DNA of 64,000 bases from Flagellimonas marinaquae (lineage in GTDB: Bacteria; Bacteroidota; Bacteroidia; Flavobacteriales; Flavobacteriaceae): positions 3,387,501-3,451,500 of the forward strand of contig NZ_CP092415.1 in NCBI RefSeq assembly GCF_023716465.1, read 5' to 3'. The translations under genes and the position numbers were made by a program. Within the stretch, counting starts at the first letter, position 1; every line of letters begins with the position of its first letter. The notes beneath the pieces are model-generated. The model did not search any database. It saw only the letters and a program-made list of their open reading frames with translations, and had not been told where the DNA came from. Positions 51,106-61,209 of the stretch are shown piece by piece.

Positions 51106-53139
51106 ATGGAACTGAGCACGGTACTTCTTATTGTTTTAGCAGTTGCTGCCGCGCTTGCCCTTGTCTATTTTCAATATTACCATAAAGACCCGAGAAAGGG
51201 TTCACTTAAATTTATATTGGCCGCACTGAGGTTTGTCACCTTGTTTTGCGGCCTTTTACTTTTGGTAAATCCAAAGTTTGTCAATAGGGATTATTTTATC
51301 GAAAAAGCCAATTTGATTCTATTGGTGGACCATTCCGAATCCATGCAGGAAGCCTCATCAGAGGGCGAAATTTACCAAGCCATACAACAAATAAAGCAGG
51401 GTGAAGCCATAAATGAAAGGTTTGCTGTGCATCAATATGGTTTTGGCGATATTGTTTCAGTAACCGATTCCATTCGTTTTGATCAAGGAAATACCGATCT
51501 TTCCAAAGCGCTGACTACCGTAAATGATGTTTTTGTAAACGGAAACAATGTTATTGCATTATTTTCTGATGGGAACCAGACCTTGGGCAAGGATTTCGAA
51601 TACATCAACTTAAAGGAAAATTTAGCTGTAAATCCCGTAGTTGTAGGTGACACCACTCAATACGAGGATATCGCCGTAGGCTTTATCAACGTTAATAAAT
51701 ACGCATTTTTACGTAATACCTTTCCGATTGAGACCTCTGTCCGTTATCAAGGAAACAGTTCAGCATCCAGTACCATTTCTATTTATCTAGATGGCAGTAG
51801 GGTTCACCAGGAACGTATTGAACTGAGCGCGGAAAATAACAGCCGGACGATTAAAACTTTGGTCGAGGCAAAAAGTGTAGGGGTTAAAACCATAAAAATA
51901 GAAATCAGACCTTTGGACAGTGAACGAAATGTTACCAATAACTCCAAAGAAACGGCCATAGAGGTCATCGATGAAAAAACCAATATTGCGATTGTTTCGG
52001 ATATACTTCATCCGGATATCGGTGCGCTCAAAAAATCCATAGAATCCAACGAACAACGCTCCGTAATCCTTCTAAAGCCAGATGCCACCCCATCCGAGTT
52101 GGAAGAAATAGGTTTGTTCATCCTATATCAGCCTAACAGGAATTTTAAAACTATATACGATTATTTGGAAAAATATGGGGGAAACTATCTCACTATTGTA
52201 GGGACAAAAACAGATTGGAATTTTGTGAATGCCTCGCAAAATAGCTTCACGATATCCGGTAGTAGGCAGCAAGAGGATGTTTTACCCGTTTTAAACAATG
52301 CATTTGGGATGTTTGGATTGGGCGAATTTTCGGTTGACGACTTTCCGCCCCTGCAAGGAACCCTGGGTGAAATAGAACTTAACAAGGAGAGCGAAACCTT
52401 AATGTACCAACAGTTACAAGGTGTAAATTTGGATAAACCCCTATTCACCATTCTTACGGAGCGCAATAAAAAGGAAGCGATATTGTTTGGGGAAGATATT
52501 TGGAGATGGAGGGCCCAAACGTACAGAAACGAGCAAAATTTTAAAAAGTTTGATGACTTTATAGGTAATTTAATGATTTATCTAGTTTCCAATAAACAAC
52601 GGAATCGACTGGAACTGGACTACGAACTGGTATTTGACAATGCCAATTTGGCCAAGATCAGAGCTTCCTATTTTGATGAAAGCTACCAGTTTAATGCCAA
52701 CGCAAGTATTTCTATCAAAATAGAAGGAGAAGACAATGATTTTACCAGAGTATCTCCATTACTTCTTAAAGGGGGCTTTTACGAAATCGATCTAAGCAAC
52801 TTAGAGGCCGGCACCTATAAATTTACCGTCAAGGTGGAAGATGAAAACTTGAATAGGTCCGGGACATTTAGAATCTTGGACTTTAATCCCGAGAAGCAAC
52901 TAATCTCCGCCAACTATAAAAAAATGGGTCGTTTGGCATCCAAAAGTAACGGATACCTTTACTTTTTGAACAATCTGGACGATTTACAATCGGAATTGAC
53001 CACTTCCGGAAAATTCTTGCCCGTACAAAAGACCAAGGAGAATGTCGTATCTTTAATAGATTTCCGTATTTTATTGGGATTAATTGCTCTATCCCTAACG
53101 TCGGAGTGGTTCATCAGAAAATATAATGGATTAATATAA
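51106..53139 (+). CDS. Second vWA/BatA-like membrane protein
   Basis: A 677-residue protein with N-terminal hydrophobic segments (about 5-23 and 36-55), then a vWA-type MIDAS motif DHSES (Asp75, Ser77, Ser79), a long beta-rich region and a C-terminal hydrophobic helix (about 655-672). It resembles the vWA protein at 6834-8756 in architecture though sequence similarity is only in general layout. It starts four bases after fabG. Function unknown; envelope-associated assembly is a guess. Confidence 0.75.
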   Translation: MELSTVLLIVLAVAAALALVYFQYYHKDPRKGSLKFILAALRFVTLFCGLLLLVNPKFVNRDYFIEKANLILLVDHSESMQEASSEGEIYQAIQQIKQGEAINERFAVHQYGFGDIVSVTDSIRFDQGNTDLSKALTTVNDVFVNGNNVIALFSDGNQTLGKDFEYINLKENLAVNPVVVGDTTQYEDIAVGFINVNKYAFLRNTFPIETSVRYQGNSSASSTISIYLDGSRVHQERIELSAENNSRTIKTLVEAKSVGVKTIKIEIRPLDSERNVTNNSKETAIEVIDEKTNIAIVSDILHPDIGALKKSIESNEQRSVILLKPDATPSELEEIGLFILYQPNRNFKTIYDYLEKYGGNYLTIVGTKTDWNFVNASQNSFTISGSRQQEDVLPVLNNAFGMFGLGEFSVDDFPPLQGTLGEIELNKESETLMYQQLQGVNLDKPLFTILTERNKKEAILFGEDIWRWRAQTYRNEQNFKKFDDFIGNLMIYLVSNKQRNRLELDYELVFDNANLAKIRASYFDESYQFNANASISIKIEGEDNDFTRVSPLLLKGGFYEIDLSNLEAGTYKFTVKVEDENLNRSGTFRILDFNPEKQLISANYKKMGRLASKSNGYLYFLNNLDDLQSELTTSGKFLPVQKTKENVVSLIDFRILLGLIALSLTSEWFIRKYNGLI

Positions 53140-53151
53140 ATAGAAGTAAAA

Positions 53152-53967
53152 ATGGACAAATTGCCCAAGATTGCGTTGCCTGCACTGGCAACGGTTATTT
53201 TCTTAATTATCATCATTTCAAAATCTGCAGTGACCATAGGTTCCGGTGAAGCAGGTGTATTGTATAAAACCTTTGGTGGCGGTGTTGTTACGGATGCCCC
53301 ACCCTTGGGAGAAGGCTTTCATTTAGTAGCGCCTTGGAACAGGGTATATATTTATGAAGTAAGACAGCAGGAAAAAACCGAAAAAATGAATGTGCTATCG
53401 TCGAACGGACTGGATATTAAATTGGAAGCTTCCGTATGGTTCCAGCCTAAATACGATGAATTGGGAAAACTACACCAAGAAAAGAGCGAACAGTACATCG
53501 ACCGAGTACTTCTTCCCGCTATACGCTCTGCGGCAAGAAGTGTTGTTGGAAGATATACGCCCGAACAACTTTATTCGAGCAAAAGGGATGCCATACAACA
53601 AGAGATATTTGAAGAAACCCAAAAAATAGTTGAGGATCAATACATCCAATTGAACGAAGTTTTGGTAAGGGATGTAACATTGCCTCCCACTATTAAAGAT
53701 GCCATTGAACGCAAATTAAAACAAGAACAGGAATCTTTGGAGTACGAATTTAGATTGGTCACAGCCGAAAAAGAAGCTGAAAAAGTTAGGATAGAAGCAC
53801 AAGGTAAGGCAGATGCCAACCGTATTTTAAGTGCTTCACTTACCGATAAAATATTGCAGGACAAAGGTATAGACGCTACAATAAAACTATCCGAATCACC
53901 AAATACCAAAGTAATCGTGGTAGGATCGGGAGACGACGGCCTACCATTAATTTTGGGAAATAACTAA
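53152..53967 (+). CDS. Prohibitin/SPFH family membrane protein
   Basis: A 271-residue protein with an N-terminal membrane segment (about residues 8-25, ATVIFLIIIISKSAV), then the SPFH/PHB domain (SGEAGVLYKTFGG, GFHLVAPWNRVYIYEVRQQEKTEKM) and a coiled-coil C-terminal part (RLVTAEKEAEKVRIEAQGKADANRI). Such proteins form membrane rings that control proteases or membrane organisation. It ends 201 bases before hisG and is the last gene of the fabG run. Confidence 0.88.
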   Translation: MDKLPKIALPALATVIFLIIIISKSAVTIGSGEAGVLYKTFGGGVVTDAPPLGEGFHLVAPWNRVYIYEVRQQEKTEKMNVLSSNGLDIKLEASVWFQPKYDELGKLHQEKSEQYIDRVLLPAIRSAARSVVGRYTPEQLYSSKRDAIQQEIFEETQKIVEDQYIQLNEVLVRDVTLPPTIKDAIERKLKQEQESLEYEFRLVTAEKEAEKVRIEAQGKADANRILSASLTDKILQDKGIDATIKLSESPNTKVIVVGSGDDGLPLILGNN

Positions 53968-53978
53968 ATAACTCTTTT

Positions 53979-54005
53979 TTGATATAAAAATATATCCTAC
54001 TTTTG
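53979..54005 (+). promoter_or_regulatory. Promoter of the his operon
   Basis: TTG at 53979-53981, 16-base spacer, TACTTTTG at 53998-54005. The start should fall near 54010-54013, so the leader peptide ATG is at the very 5' end of the mRNA. Confidence 0.75.
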
Positions 54006-54012
54006 ACGTATA

Positions 54013-54069
54013 ATGAAAACGAATAACGTACATCATCATCATTTTTATACTTGCTCTCAAGCGAGATAG
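54013..54069 (+). CDS. hisL: Histidine operon leader peptide
   Basis: ATG at 54013 to TAG at 54067-54069 encodes MKTNNVHHHHFYTCSQAR, 18 residues with four consecutive histidine codons at 54031-54042. It lies between a good promoter and an intrinsic terminator, upstream of hisG. This is the typical plan of a ribosome-mediated attenuator. Codons after the His run (Ser-Gln-Ala, 54055-54063) are complementary to the terminator 5' arm. The symbol follows enterobacterial use by analogy. Confidence 0.88.
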   Translation: MKTNNVHHHHFYTCSQAR

Positions 54070-54133
54070 GAATGTATTGCTGTATTTAAAATATATTCTA
54101 ACCCGTTTGAGAAATCAAACGGGTTTGTTTTTT
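54055..54133 (+). promoter_or_regulatory. His attenuator: terminator and antiterminator structures
   Basis: Terminator: AACCCGTTTGA (54100-54110) pairs with TCAAACGGGTT (54115-54125), 11 bp, GAAA loop, then a T-rich run to about 54133. Antiterminator: TCTCAAGCG (54055-54063) pairs with CGTTTGAGA (54104-54112), 9 bp with one G-U, mutually exclusive with the terminator. Between them GAATGTATT (54070-54078) and AATATATTC (54090-54098) form a further hairpin. A ribosome stalled at the His codons would leave 54055-54063 free and permit read-through into hisG; one that reaches the stop would cover it and allow termination. RNA structures are inferred from pairing only. Confidence 0.8.
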
Positions 54134-54168
54134 GTACCCCTTTGGTTTTTCGGACAAAAACTTGAAAA

Positions 54169-55026
54169 ATGACAAAAATTAGAATTGCTGTTCAAAAGAG
54201 TGGGCGTTTAAACGAAGATTCGCTCAAAATTTTAAAAGATTGCGGTATTTCCATAGACAACGGGAAAGATCAATTAAAAGCTACTTCCCGCAATTTTCCC
54301 TTGGAAGTATTTTATCTAAGAAATGGGGATATTCCACAGTACCTGCGAGATGGGGTAGTGGACATAGCCATTATCGGAGAGAACGTCCTTATAGAAAAAG
54401 GGAAGGACATTTCCATAGCCGAACGTTTGGGTTTTTCCAAATGTCGGGTTTCCCTGGCAGTTCCAAAAAGCGAGAGTTACAATTCCATTAAGGATTTCGA
54501 AGGGAAGAAAATCGCAACTTCCTACCCAAACACGGTCAAGGAGTATCTGGCCGCCAGAGGGGTAAACGCAGAACTTCATATTATAAATGGTTCCGTGGAA
54601 ATTGCTCCCAATATCGGTTTGGCTTATGGAATCTGTGATATTGTTTCGAGCGGTAGTACGTTGTTCAAAAACAACTTAAAGGAAGTCGAGGTAATGCTAA
54701 AAAGTGAAGCAGTGCTCGCTGTTTCGCCTACCATTTCCGAAGAGCGCAAAGAACTCTTAAAAAAAATACAGTTCAGGATCAAATCGGTTTTGCAGGCACG
54801 CCAGAACAAATATGTGCTCATGAATGCACCAAACGAGAAACTGGACGAGATTATTTCCATTCTCCCCGGAATGCGGAGCCCCACGGTATTGCCCTTGGCT
54901 GAAGAAGGATGGAGCTCTGTGCACACGGTAATAAATCGAGAGACTTTTTGGGAAGTAATCGATGAACTGAAACAAGCGGGAGCAGAAGGTATCTTGGTTT
55001 GTCCAATCGAAAAAATGGTCCTTTAA
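54169..55026 (+). CDS. hisG: ATP phosphoribosyltransferase, long form
   Basis: A 285-residue enzyme catalysing the first step of histidine synthesis (ATP plus PRPP). The catalytic part has IRIAVQKSGRLNEDSL and DIVSSGSTLFKNNL. The C-terminal part, about 75 residues, is the HisG_C regulatory domain that binds histidine in the long form, so feedback inhibition is likely and no HisZ is needed. It starts 36 bases after the attenuator T-run. Confidence 0.95.
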   Translation: MTKIRIAVQKSGRLNEDSLKILKDCGISIDNGKDQLKATSRNFPLEVFYLRNGDIPQYLRDGVVDIAIIGENVLIEKGKDISIAERLGFSKCRVSLAVPKSESYNSIKDFEGKKIATSYPNTVKEYLAARGVNAELHIINGSVEIAPNIGLAYGICDIVSSGSTLFKNNLKEVEVMLKSEAVLAVSPTISEERKELLKKIQFRIKSVLQARQNKYVLMNAPNEKLDEIISILPGMRSPTVLPLAEEGWSSVHTVINRETFWEVIDELKQAGAEGILVCPIEKMVL

Positions 55027-55037
55027 AATTAGGTAGA

Positions 55038-55475
55038 ATGATAGGTGAGTTCAACATAAAATGGATTCCCGAAGAGAATCTGTCCTCAATTTTACCTTTG
55101 GCATTTGTGCTGAACAATAAAAAGGTTTGCATGGATATCTTACAGCAACGATTGGCCGCTATGATTCCCATGGGATATAAATGTATCGGGGTTTATGATC
55201 AAGAAAGATTAGTGGGAATATGTGGGGTATGGGAACTGAACAAACTCTATGCAGGAAAGCATTTGGAACCGGATAATGTGATTATTGATCCCGAATATCA
55301 AGGAAAGAAAATCGGCGACTTAATGATGTCCTTTTTAACGGATTATGCAAAATCCATAGGTTGCGAAACCATGGAACTTAACTGTTATGCCAATAATAAC
55401 AGAGGTAAACAATTCTGGGAAAACCAAGGTTACGAAGCCTTGGGCTTTCACATGATCAAAAGACTAAAACCATGA
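55038..55475 (+). CDS. GNAT acetyltransferase in the his operon
   Basis: A 145-residue N-acetyltransferase from ATG 55038 (the longer frame from TTG 54999 lies inside hisG). The acetyl-CoA loop is in YQGKKIGDLMMSFL, followed by NCYANNNRGKQFWENQGYEALGFHMIKR, the typical second half of GNATs. Substrate unknown. It starts 11 bases after hisG and its TGA overlaps the hisD ATG (ATGA), so it is translated with the his enzymes. Whether it acts on histidine or histidine precursors is open. Confidence 0.85.
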   Translation: MIGEFNIKWIPEENLSSILPLAFVLNNKKVCMDILQQRLAAMIPMGYKCIGVYDQERLVGICGVWELNKLYAGKHLEPDNVIIDPEYQGKKIGDLMMSFLTDYAKSIGCETMELNCYANNNRGKQFWENQGYEALGFHMIKRLKP

Positions 55476-58989: not shown

Positions 58990-59343
58990 ATGAGAAAGGA
59001 TTTGAAGGATAGAACAAAAGCATTTGCTATTAGTACTTGGAACTTATGTTCAAATATTCCAAAATCTAGAGAGTTTAATGCCTATGTCAATCAATTAATC
59101 AGATGTTCGAGTTCTGTTGGAGCAAATTACAGAGCCTCACAACGAGCAAAATCTCGTGCCGATTTCATCAACAAACTCAAAATAGTTGAGGAAGAAATAG
59201 ATGAAAGCATGTACTTTTTAGAACTTCTAATGGAAATAAGCGAAAATAACCTCTCAGAAATGAAATCATTGCACACCGAAGCAACTGAAATTTTAGCCAT
59301 TGTTGTTTCATCTATTAAAACCGCACGAGAAAATGGGAAATAA
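58990..59343 (+). CDS. Four-helix bundle protein (S23/IVS-encoded family, TIGR02436)
   Basis: A 117-residue helical protein. The signature blocks VNQLIRCSSSVGANYRAS, RAKSRADFINKLKIVEEEIDESMYFLELL define the TIGR02436/PF05635 family, first found inside intervening sequences of 23S rRNA genes in Leptospira and Coxiella and related to the Avd protein of diversity-generating retroelements. No enzymatic motif; nucleic acid binding is inferred from the relatives. It has no promoter and is read through from hisB. Confidence 0.88.
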   Translation: MRKDLKDRTKAFAISTWNLCSNIPKSREFNAYVNQLIRCSSSVGANYRASQRAKSRADFINKLKIVEEEIDESMYFLELLMEISENNLSEMKSLHTEATEILAIVVSSIKTARENGK

Positions 59344-59969: not shown

Positions 59970-60701
59970 ATGAGGATAATACCAGCCATAGATATCATTG
60001 ACGGTAAATGCGTGCGTCTTTCCAAAGGCGATTACAATACCAAAAAAGTCTATAACGAAAACCCTTTGGAAGTAGCCAAGGAGTTTGAGGAACATGGTAT
60101 TCAACATCTTCATTTGGTGGATTTGGATGGCGCAAAATCCAAACATATTGTCAACCATAAAGTTTTGGAGTCCATTGCATCAAAAACCAATCTTCAAATT
60201 GATTTTGGTGGGGGGTTAAAATCCAATGAAGATCTGCACATTGCTTTTGAAAGTGGTGCAAAACAAATCACAGGTGGGAGCATCGCTGTAAAAGACCGAG
60301 ACACGTTTTTGGGTTGGTTGGAAAAATATGGGCCGGAAAAAATTATTCTGGGTGCAGATGCCAATAATGAAAAGGTGGCCGTTTCTGGCTGGCAAGAAGA
60401 ATCAGATTTACAACTTATTCCTTTTGTTCAACAATACCAATCGGAAGGCATAACCTATGTGATTTGTACAGATATAAGTAAGGATGGTATGTTACAAGGA
60501 CCATCATTCCAGTTATACAAAAAAATGCTGTCCCAAACCAAAAAAGGATTACATTTAATAGCCAGTGGTGGAATCTCCACTTTTGACGAACTTCCCAAAC
60601 TTGCCGAAATTGGTTGTGAGGGCACAATCATAGGCAAAGCCATTTATGAAGGTAAGATCAGTTTAAAACAATTGGAACATTATATTCTTGAGAATGGATA
60701 A
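59970..60701 (+). CDS. hisA: ProFAR isomerase
   Basis: A 243-residue TIM-barrel isomerase. General acid/base Asp8 in [10 protein letters not shown] and Asp about 132 in [13 protein letters not shown], with phosphate-binding GGGL and ASGGIST. It rearranges the histidine intermediate ProFAR. It overlaps the start of the DUF1572 gene by a few bases. Confidence 0.95.
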
Positions 60702-61209
60702 AGAAAAAGAACTCCAAGAAGAATTGGTTTGGAATGCAGGGTATCGTATGAACGAAAACCTCCGTATGATCAAAATTTGTTTAGATCAACTTTCTGAAGA
60801 ACAAGTTTGGCAGAAGCCGAACAGCTCGTGCAACAGCATTGCAAATCTTATTCTTCATTTATGCGGAAACATCACCCAATATGGGATTGCTTCCATTCAA
60901 AACTTGGAGGATGAACGTAAAAGGGATGAAGAATTTGCCACCGAATCTGGCTACACCAAAGCTGAGTTAATCAAAAAACTAGAAGATACGGTCGATGAAG
61001 CTAAAAGAGCATTTTATGATGCTCCCTTACATGAGCTTTTGCGCAAACGTTATGTTCAAGGGTTTAATTTTTCTGGGGTCGGCAACATTATCCATGTAAC
61101 AGAGCATTTATCTTACCACACGGGTCAGATTGCACTGTACACTAAAATGTTGAACGATCAGGATCTTGGATTTTATTCTGGGGTAAACTTGAATGTGAAG
61201 AACGAATAA
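60694..61209 (+). CDS. DinB-like DUF1572 protein in the his operon
   Basis: A 171-residue four-helix DinB superfamily protein of the DUF1572 group from ATG 60694. Metal-binding positions: [17 protein letters not shown] and [21 protein letters not shown] ([12 protein letters not shown]). The in-frame TTG at 60688 is inside hisA and not needed. It lies between hisA and hisF, overlapping hisA by eight bases and two bases before hisF. A role in histidine synthesis is not known; the neighbour relation recurs in flavobacteria as I recall. Confidence 0.85.

Follow-up and report, generated by a model that had tools for sequence, protein, structure and literature searches.

The his operon and its leader

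The window analysed here, a stretch of 64,000 nucleotides of Flagellimonas marinaquae DNA, contains a histidine operon whose open reading frames run in the same direction in the order hisG, GNAT, hisD, hisC, hisB, 23S_rRNA_IVP-family, hisH, hisA, DUF1572/DinB-type, hisF and hisIE. Pfam supports hisG, the GNAT gene, hisB, 23S_rRNA_IVP, DUF1572 and hisIE; the others we take, from their translations, to be hisD, hisC, hisH, hisA and hisF. Three members of the series are not his genes: the GNAT acetyltransferase (54999–55475), the 23S_rRNA_IVP-family gene (58990–59343) and the DUF1572/DinB-type gene (60697–61209). The HisG protein is 95–97% identical to its seven nearest relatives, all of them from Allomuricauda and Muricauda.

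Between the operon and the gene upstream lies a compact set of elements (Table 1). Read directly, the leader ORF has 18 sense codons between its ATG and the TAG at 54067–54069, and four of these, in succession, encode histidine. Since the genes downstream are his genes, histidine is both what the run encodes and what the operon makes. Arm 2 starts 12 nt after the run and can form an alternative helix of 9 bp, one of them G-U, with part of arm 3, which otherwise belongs to the 11-bp stem of a terminator (54100–54110/54115–54125) with a 4-nt loop, followed by TGTTTTTT. An earlier note on this DNA had called the arrangement a complete histidine attenuator, and its leader, terminator and pairing are all real and where it placed them. 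Its hairpin inside the antiterminator, given as 9 bp at 54070–54098, is present too, but folds as 10 bp, with an extra G-U pair at its base. Absent from that note were a hairpin that would protect arm 2 (54040–54074) and a third partner for arm 3 (54145–54155). Nowhere else on either strand of the window does a terminator follow a His-rich ORF, and the exact arm 2…arm 3 pattern is present once in the organism's own genome, upstream of hisG.

Table 1. Elements of the his leader region, numbered from the first base of the window
Feature	Position	Strand	Basis
−33-like promoter element, TTTG	53978–53981	+	sequence; TTTG recurs in relatives
−7 promoter box TACTTTTG of the TAnnTTTG class, 7 nt upstream of the leader ATG	53998–54005	+	conserved spacing
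Predicted transcription start (3-nt 5' UTR)	54010	+	inferred from box position
Leader peptide ORF MKTNNVHHHHFYTCSQAR, stop TAG	54013–54069	+	sequence; HHH or longer near hisG
Proposed stalling site, four His codons, all CAT	54031–54042	+	sequence; conserved
Protecting hairpin, arm 1 (54040–54055) with 54060–54074	54040–54074	+	folding, covariation
Arm 2, antiterminator 5' arm TCTCAAGCG	54055–54063	+	pairing probability 0.98–0.99 with 54104–54112 before arm 4 exists
Hairpin looped inside the antiterminator (54069–54078/54090–54099)	54069–54099	+	folding
Arm 3, terminator 5' arm; the part pairing with arm 2 is 54104–54112, CGTTTGAGA	54100–54110	+	folding, conservation
Target of arm 5, upper arm 3 and loop GTTTGAGAAAT	54105–54115	+	complementarity
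Arm 4 (54115–54125) and U-run (54126–54133)	54115–54133	+	sequence; pairing conserved
Arm 5 GTTTTTCGGAC, able to pair with the loop and upper arm 3; 13 nt before hisG	54145–54155	+	matches enriched across Flavobacteriales loci
hisG, at the head of the regulated operon	54169–55026	+	Pfam HisG, HisG_C

Predicted alternative structures of the leader RNA

The 162-nt leader is far more stable than its composition calls for (folding z −6.0; equally stable shuffles, 0/200). When the RNA has been made as far as 54113 and a ribosome occupies one of the four His codons, whichever it is, the arm 2–arm 3 helix is predicted at a probability of 0.98–0.99; a ribosome at the stop codon covers arm 2, and the terminator then reaches 0.99. 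The antiterminator, then, excludes the terminator, is covered by a ribosome at the stop and is free of one at the His run, and these relations come together with a short ORF rich in codons for the operon's own amino acid and an intrinsic terminator between that ORF and the first gene. With no ribosome, the antiterminator has a probability of 0.98 at 54113 at equilibrium, and has not yet formed at 54110. In each of the four ribosome states that were folded, the complete terminator wins, so the choice between the structures would be kinetic, and the switch would depend on transcription and translation being properly timed.

As long as arm 3 has yet to be transcribed, a leader with no ribosome on its His run forms a 15-bp hairpin that takes in about half of arm 2; for RNA ending at 54075 its folding energy is −14.9 kcal/mol. 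A ribosome on the first His codon reduces it to −8.6 kcal/mol, and one on the last to −3.1 kcal/mol. In an alignment of close relatives (63 of 81 loci, 62 of them distinct), simulated ribosome cover of the 18 nt that begin at the His run costs the hairpin at least 3 kcal/mol in 63/63 loci, the mean moving from −13.1 to −5.2. Within this set 7 of its 15 pairs have changed on both sides; such double-sided changes fill 36 cells of the alignment, against 13.5 in shuffles (0/500 as high) and 4–21 in slid versions of the hairpin. Overall 81.9% of its cells pair, the tip pair by the loop being mostly unpaired. The enteric his leader has a protecting hairpin as well. Because the one described here would form first, before the antiterminator, an untranslated leader would probably terminate, as in enterics.

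Conservation of the leader, the terminator and the antiterminator

Among the best 80 hisG loci of near relatives, 79 have HHH or HHHH in an ATG ORF, the conservation for which the earlier note had proposed to look; the exception, L041, reads Tyr-His-His, with two adjacent His codons. Farther afield we took samples, not exhaustive sets: from the order, 60 regions from 59 of the 104 genomes (196 searched) in which hisG was matched; from the class and the phylum, 20 regions each, the phylum search having matched 213 genomes, from which 40 regions were taken. A His-rich ORF, defined as no more than 45 codons long and no more than 300 nt from hisG, is found upstream of the gene in 59/60 of the order loci, 17/20 of the class loci and 15/20 of the phylum loci (91/100), and in 25/2000 of the shuffled windows that serve as control for these three samples; some of the phylum-level ORFs (L163, L171, L179 and L181) are loose, and may be there by chance. 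A terminator hairpin of the same kind accompanies the leader in 81/81 near loci and 164/181 loci overall. The predicted attenuator, then, recurs widely across the phylum as sampled, and in much of that sample annotation could use a His-rich leader with a terminator behind it as a marker of hisG.

Two variants deserve mention. The order sample includes 1 of 29 matching 0.6-Mb genomes, from family f16, and at this locus (L136) the run pattern finds no His-rich leader; a hairpin with a T-run is still present. In family f5 (L112, L115, L116, L121–L123 and L125–L130) the leader is of the MKPNFLTVHHYHHHLC type, and the antiterminator arm spans and passes the stop codon, a geometry different from that of the 54013–54069 leader.

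Pairing is kept in 99.9% of the cells of the terminator, and in 91.2% of those of the antiterminator, across the 62 distinct close relatives. The earlier note had proposed compensatory changes between 54055–54063 and 54104–54112 as a check on the antiterminator. In close relatives they number 10 cells against 9.3 in shuffles, 222/500 of which are as high, and RNAalifold returns only the terminator from this set; because the arms hardly vary in the 63 aligned loci and there is no excess over shuffles, the test gives no support by itself. Between distant groups the pairing of the arms is kept across quite different sequences. Arm 2 pairs with arm 3 better than shuffles do (p ≤ 0.05) in 75/80 near, 45/56 order, 10/13 class and 10/13 phylum loci (140/162 altogether), and no antiterminator was found in L131 (p 0.73) or L179 (p 0.63). 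When 31 distinct arm-3 tops, one locus each, were confronted with arm-2 partners, their own gave a mean of −14.6 kcal/mol, against −9.8 for permuted ones (sd 0.48; best of 5000 permutations, −11.7 kcal/mol); the own partner ranked top in only 10/31 rows and 6/31 columns of this swap test. By these measures the predicted antiterminator persists through the turnover of its sequence between distant groups. In three loci (L047, L051 and L054) a stop replaces the Gln codon of the leader yet the RNA arm is retained, which points to selection on the RNA.

A promoter close to the leader start codon

The earlier note had placed a consensus promoter in front of the leader. There is one, of the flavobacterial TAnnTTTG form (TTTG and the −7 box, with a spacer of 16); it is not a promoter that a sigma-70 scan listed. 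From the end of the TAnnTTT(G/A) box to the leader ATG the distance is 7 nt in 62/81 near loci and 8 nt in 13/81 (75/81 together); in the remainder it is 18–19 nt (L070, L073 and L074) or there is no box (L069, L072 and L078). TTTG recurs 15–24 nt upstream of the box in 49/62 of the loci with spacing 7. In Flavobacterium psychrophilum this box has been placed at −12 to −5 relative to the start site, in the part of the transcriptome report that bears on it (PMC9723704), and from this position and the spacing of 7–8 nt we predict a 5' UTR of 3 or 4 nt. The base at −4 is a pyrimidine in 61/62, and that at −3 a purine in 59/62, of the spacing-7 loci, which fits a start site at −3. It is not unique evidence for one, because adenine at −3 also aids initiation in F. 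johnsoniae, according to the portion of PMC6847099 that deals with it. The earlier note's remark that the leader peptide is possibly leaderless is strengthened by the fixed spacing and by the pyrimidine–purine step. Leaderless mRNAs make up only 5.5% in F. psychrophilum.

The predicted near-leaderless layout is a clade trait. Among the 60 order loci, spacing is 7 in 4, 8 in 4 and less in 3, and most have at least 16 nt or no box. That every attenuator has a near-leaderless start was considered and rejected: trp leaders and some his leaders break this rule. The distance from box to ATG is 5 to 21 nt among 29 trp leaders from the family, one of which has no box, and in 6/29, the genome's own included, it is 5 nt; a thirtieth trp locus, L202, is without an ATG leader.

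How the leader might work

From the sequence, the pairing and their conservation we are confident in reading the region as the his operon's transcription attenuator, of the ribosome-mediated kind, in which ribosome stalling, termination and the response to histidine would be connected as follows. RNA would start about 3 nt before the leader ATG, and a ribosome would start on this near-leaderless message. Were charged His-tRNA scarce, the ribosome would stall at the His run, cover the 5' half of the protecting hairpin and so free arm 2, which could pair with arm 3 as it emerges from the polymerase; no terminator would form, and hisG and the genes that follow would be transcribed. Were His-tRNA plentiful, the ribosome would reach the stop codon and cover arm 2, and arms 3 and 4 would form the terminator. 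With no ribosome at all, the protecting hairpin would be the first to take up half of arm 2, and termination should be favoured; we are unsure of this step, since at equilibrium the antiterminator would still win briefly.

For attenuation of this kind a ribosome must be on the leader by the time about 115 nucleotides have been transcribed. Its wide conservation in a phylum without Shine–Dalgarno sequences, together with a start codon predicted, in one clade, almost at the 5' end of the RNA, would make the coupling of transcription and translation in Bacteroidota testable.

A possible third partner for arm 3

Arm 5 lies beyond the terminator and is complementary to the upper part of arm 3 and the loop. 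In the window itself this pairing is no better than in shuffles (p 0.21), and by RNAduplex it reaches p ≤ 0.05 in 66/161 loci, these being all that have enough sequence after the terminator. As a class, it is enriched in Flavobacteriales. Contiguous matches of 10/10 within 60 nt before hisG occur in 31/77 near loci (2.6 expected) and 22/51 order loci (0.19 expected), or 53/128 together (2.8 expected), and matches of at least 9/10 in 47/77 (18.7 expected) and 38/51 (3.3 expected). Outside the order, 9/10 matches number 0/10 in the class and 0/12 in the phylum (0/22), and there are 0/21 in trp attenuators of the same family, making 0/43 controls with the class and phylum loci. These counts drew on 77/81 near, 51/57 order, 10/13 class and 12/13 phylum loci. 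Shifting the definition by one base leaves 9/10 matches in 36/78 near (9.9 expected) and 24/53 order loci (1.6 expected), 71/131 loci having none, and there are no 10/10 matches, because arm 5 ends just short of arm 3's C. G follows arm 5 on its 3' side in 0/85 cases, the G fraction there being 0.11; by chance this would have a probability of about 4e-5 if the loci were independent, which they are not.

One further approach avoids choosing sites by their pairing. When arm 5 was sought at fixed distances in the 54 near loci with at least 40 nt after the terminator, pairing peaked 14 nt before hisG (6.5/10 pairs, with 6.1 at 15 nt and 3.4–5.2 elsewhere); 46 order loci gave no single peak. Anchored on the arm alone, arm 5 can be placed in 98/133 loci, 12–25 nt before hisG in 78/98 of them. 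The loop bases, free of constraint by the terminator, pair in 274/389 cases in these anchored loci, against 219 when permuted (sd 6.3; best of 2000, 240), and at the second base after the anchored arm the loop/arm 5 combinations are A-T in 26, T-A in 22 and C-G in 14 of the 98. When each genus was represented by a single locus (54 groups, unclassified loci being kept separate), own pairing came to a mean of 8.58/10 against 8.01 when swapped, and exceeded all 1000 swaps in 20/20 draws. Independent contrasts of loop and arm 5 on the hisG tree yielded only 2 supported pairs, too few to have power. The pairing of arms 3 and 5 is thus probably under selection.

Because the terminator is transcribed first, arm 5 can have no say in termination. 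It could, we infer, hamper the entry of ribosomes on hisG, in cis or by way of released leader RNA. The fullest form of this idea adds a post-transcriptional layer to the attenuator: once arm 2 is covered, arm 3 and the loop would also pair with arm 5, in read-through RNA or, with a terminated leader, in trans, and lower the translation of hisG. The exact matches far above expectation, the absence of G next to arm 5, the peak before hisG in near loci, the loop and per-genus tests and the lack of the element in trp attenuators and outside the order all speak for it; the window's own pairing, no better than that of shuffles, the RNAduplex total, the lack of a single peak in the order sample, the scarcity of independent contrasts and the loci without a 9/10 match under the shifted definition speak against, as does the preference, in most cases, for the terminator hairpin at equilibrium. 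There, the arm 5 state has a probability of 0.13 in the window and 0.00–0.51 in 15 chosen loci; the idea that read-through RNA folds mainly with arm 5 was considered, and most of these 15 do not bear it out. On balance we regard this added layer as possible, but less likely than not. The whole proposition—a three-way his switch of Flavobacteriales, in which arms 2, 4 and 5 control both transcription and hisG translation, in cis or in trans, with a near-leaderless leader start in one clade, in bacteria that make no use of Shine–Dalgarno pairing—we put forward a shade more tentatively still. If arm 5 is what it seems, one arm would serve two levels of control.

Complementarity could arise in another way. 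Arms 3 and 5 might be two DNA sites for a regulator protein, complementary only because they are inverted with respect to each other; arm 5 is near the gene start, and both arms are conserved. A protein site should be constant at both places, however, and loop and arm 5 tend to change together; moreover, arm 5 goes no further than arm 3's CC, G never following. We think this improbable. Least credible of all is an ordinary terminator of the SPFH gene upstream, which ends some 130 nt before it on the same strand, beside a His-rich ORF that arose by chance: the His run, arm 2 and the promoter spacing are conserved before hisG across many genera.

Relation to known attenuators

The attenuator reading puts the region beside several known systems. 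Attenuation of the enteric his operon, in Escherichia coli and Salmonella, is classical. Its Rfam model, His_leader, which we take to be RF00514, is not among the 6 Rfam matches up to E 5 in 53000–55000, and neither is the T-box model. The element in the window differs from the enteric one in its predicted near-leaderless start, TAnnTTTG promoter, arm 5 and lack of an Rfam match; scans of this leader and those of six relatives gave no family at the curated score.

The earlier note had set this lineage apart from the enteric bacteria in which leader-peptide attenuation is classical, but such attenuators are not new to it: Bacteroid-trp (RF01692), which belongs to the same phylum and is likewise an amino-acid operon's leader-peptide attenuator, occurs in the same genome (L182, 62 bits). 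It uses Trp codons, precedes trpE and lacks arm 5 (0/21), and its model misses the his leader; RF01692 is not among the matches up to E 5 there, and gives none at the gathering score in six relatives' his loci. Bacteroid-trp is a curated leader RNA of Bacteroidetes, tabled in PMC2864571. For the his element itself, the parts consulted of a 2021 transcriptome of F. psychrophilum (PMC9723704) describe a conserved element before hisG, absent from Rfam and shared with other Flavobacteriaceae, and find strong clues for leader-peptide attenuation before amino-acid operons. Very probably the F. psychrophilum element is the same as that in the window. In those parts of the main text hisG is named once, with no leader sequence, arms or start position.

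More distant likenesses come from excerpts of other reports. In Sinorhizobium meliloti the attenuator RNA of trpL begins at the leader ATG, and the released RNA acts in trans as an sRNA (PMC7298713); that system responds to Trp, in another phylum, and the short 5' UTR of the his leader is a prediction only. By analogy with rnTrpL, the released his leader could have a role in trans. Firmicutes have His-leader attenuators with three to five consecutive His codons, an antiterminator and a terminator (PMC9413887; hisS/hisZ in bacilli, PMC2965389), likened here by description, and again in another phylum. A survey of his genes in the superphylum uses the word attenuation once, for enterics, in the portion seen (PMC8305728). 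Leader-peptide attenuation in Bacteroidota is thus known, and the his element is partly foreseen in print. We came upon no description of the his leader's arms, start-site spacing or arm 5 in the full-text literature on leader-peptide attenuation in Bacteroidota or on histidine, as covered by titles, the openings of abstracts and passages of some papers; the breadth of the element with its turnover of sequence, its near-leaderless layout in one clade and arm 5 were not found described.

Two other leaders in the same genome were looked at in passing. At L182 (1309–1421, upstream of trpE, G000:C1 near 440,650–440,770), where Bacteroid-trp matches, the Trp leader is MINRIANNWWWINLRQTS; its −7 box ends 5 nt before the ATG, for a predicted 5' UTR of 1 nt, and the end of the leader, judged by eye, pairs not with the terminator's 5' arm but with its loop and 3' arm (GTCGTGA/TCACGAC). 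At L184, just upstream of 1489 (before pheA, G000:C1 near 2,374,300), a Phe/Tyr-rich ORF, MTNTYFWNRFYFYFFFQRGTGLF, is followed by a terminator that ends about 12 nt before the pheA start and whose AGTCCCG is complementary, by eye, to a CGGGACT; this is likely a further attenuator.
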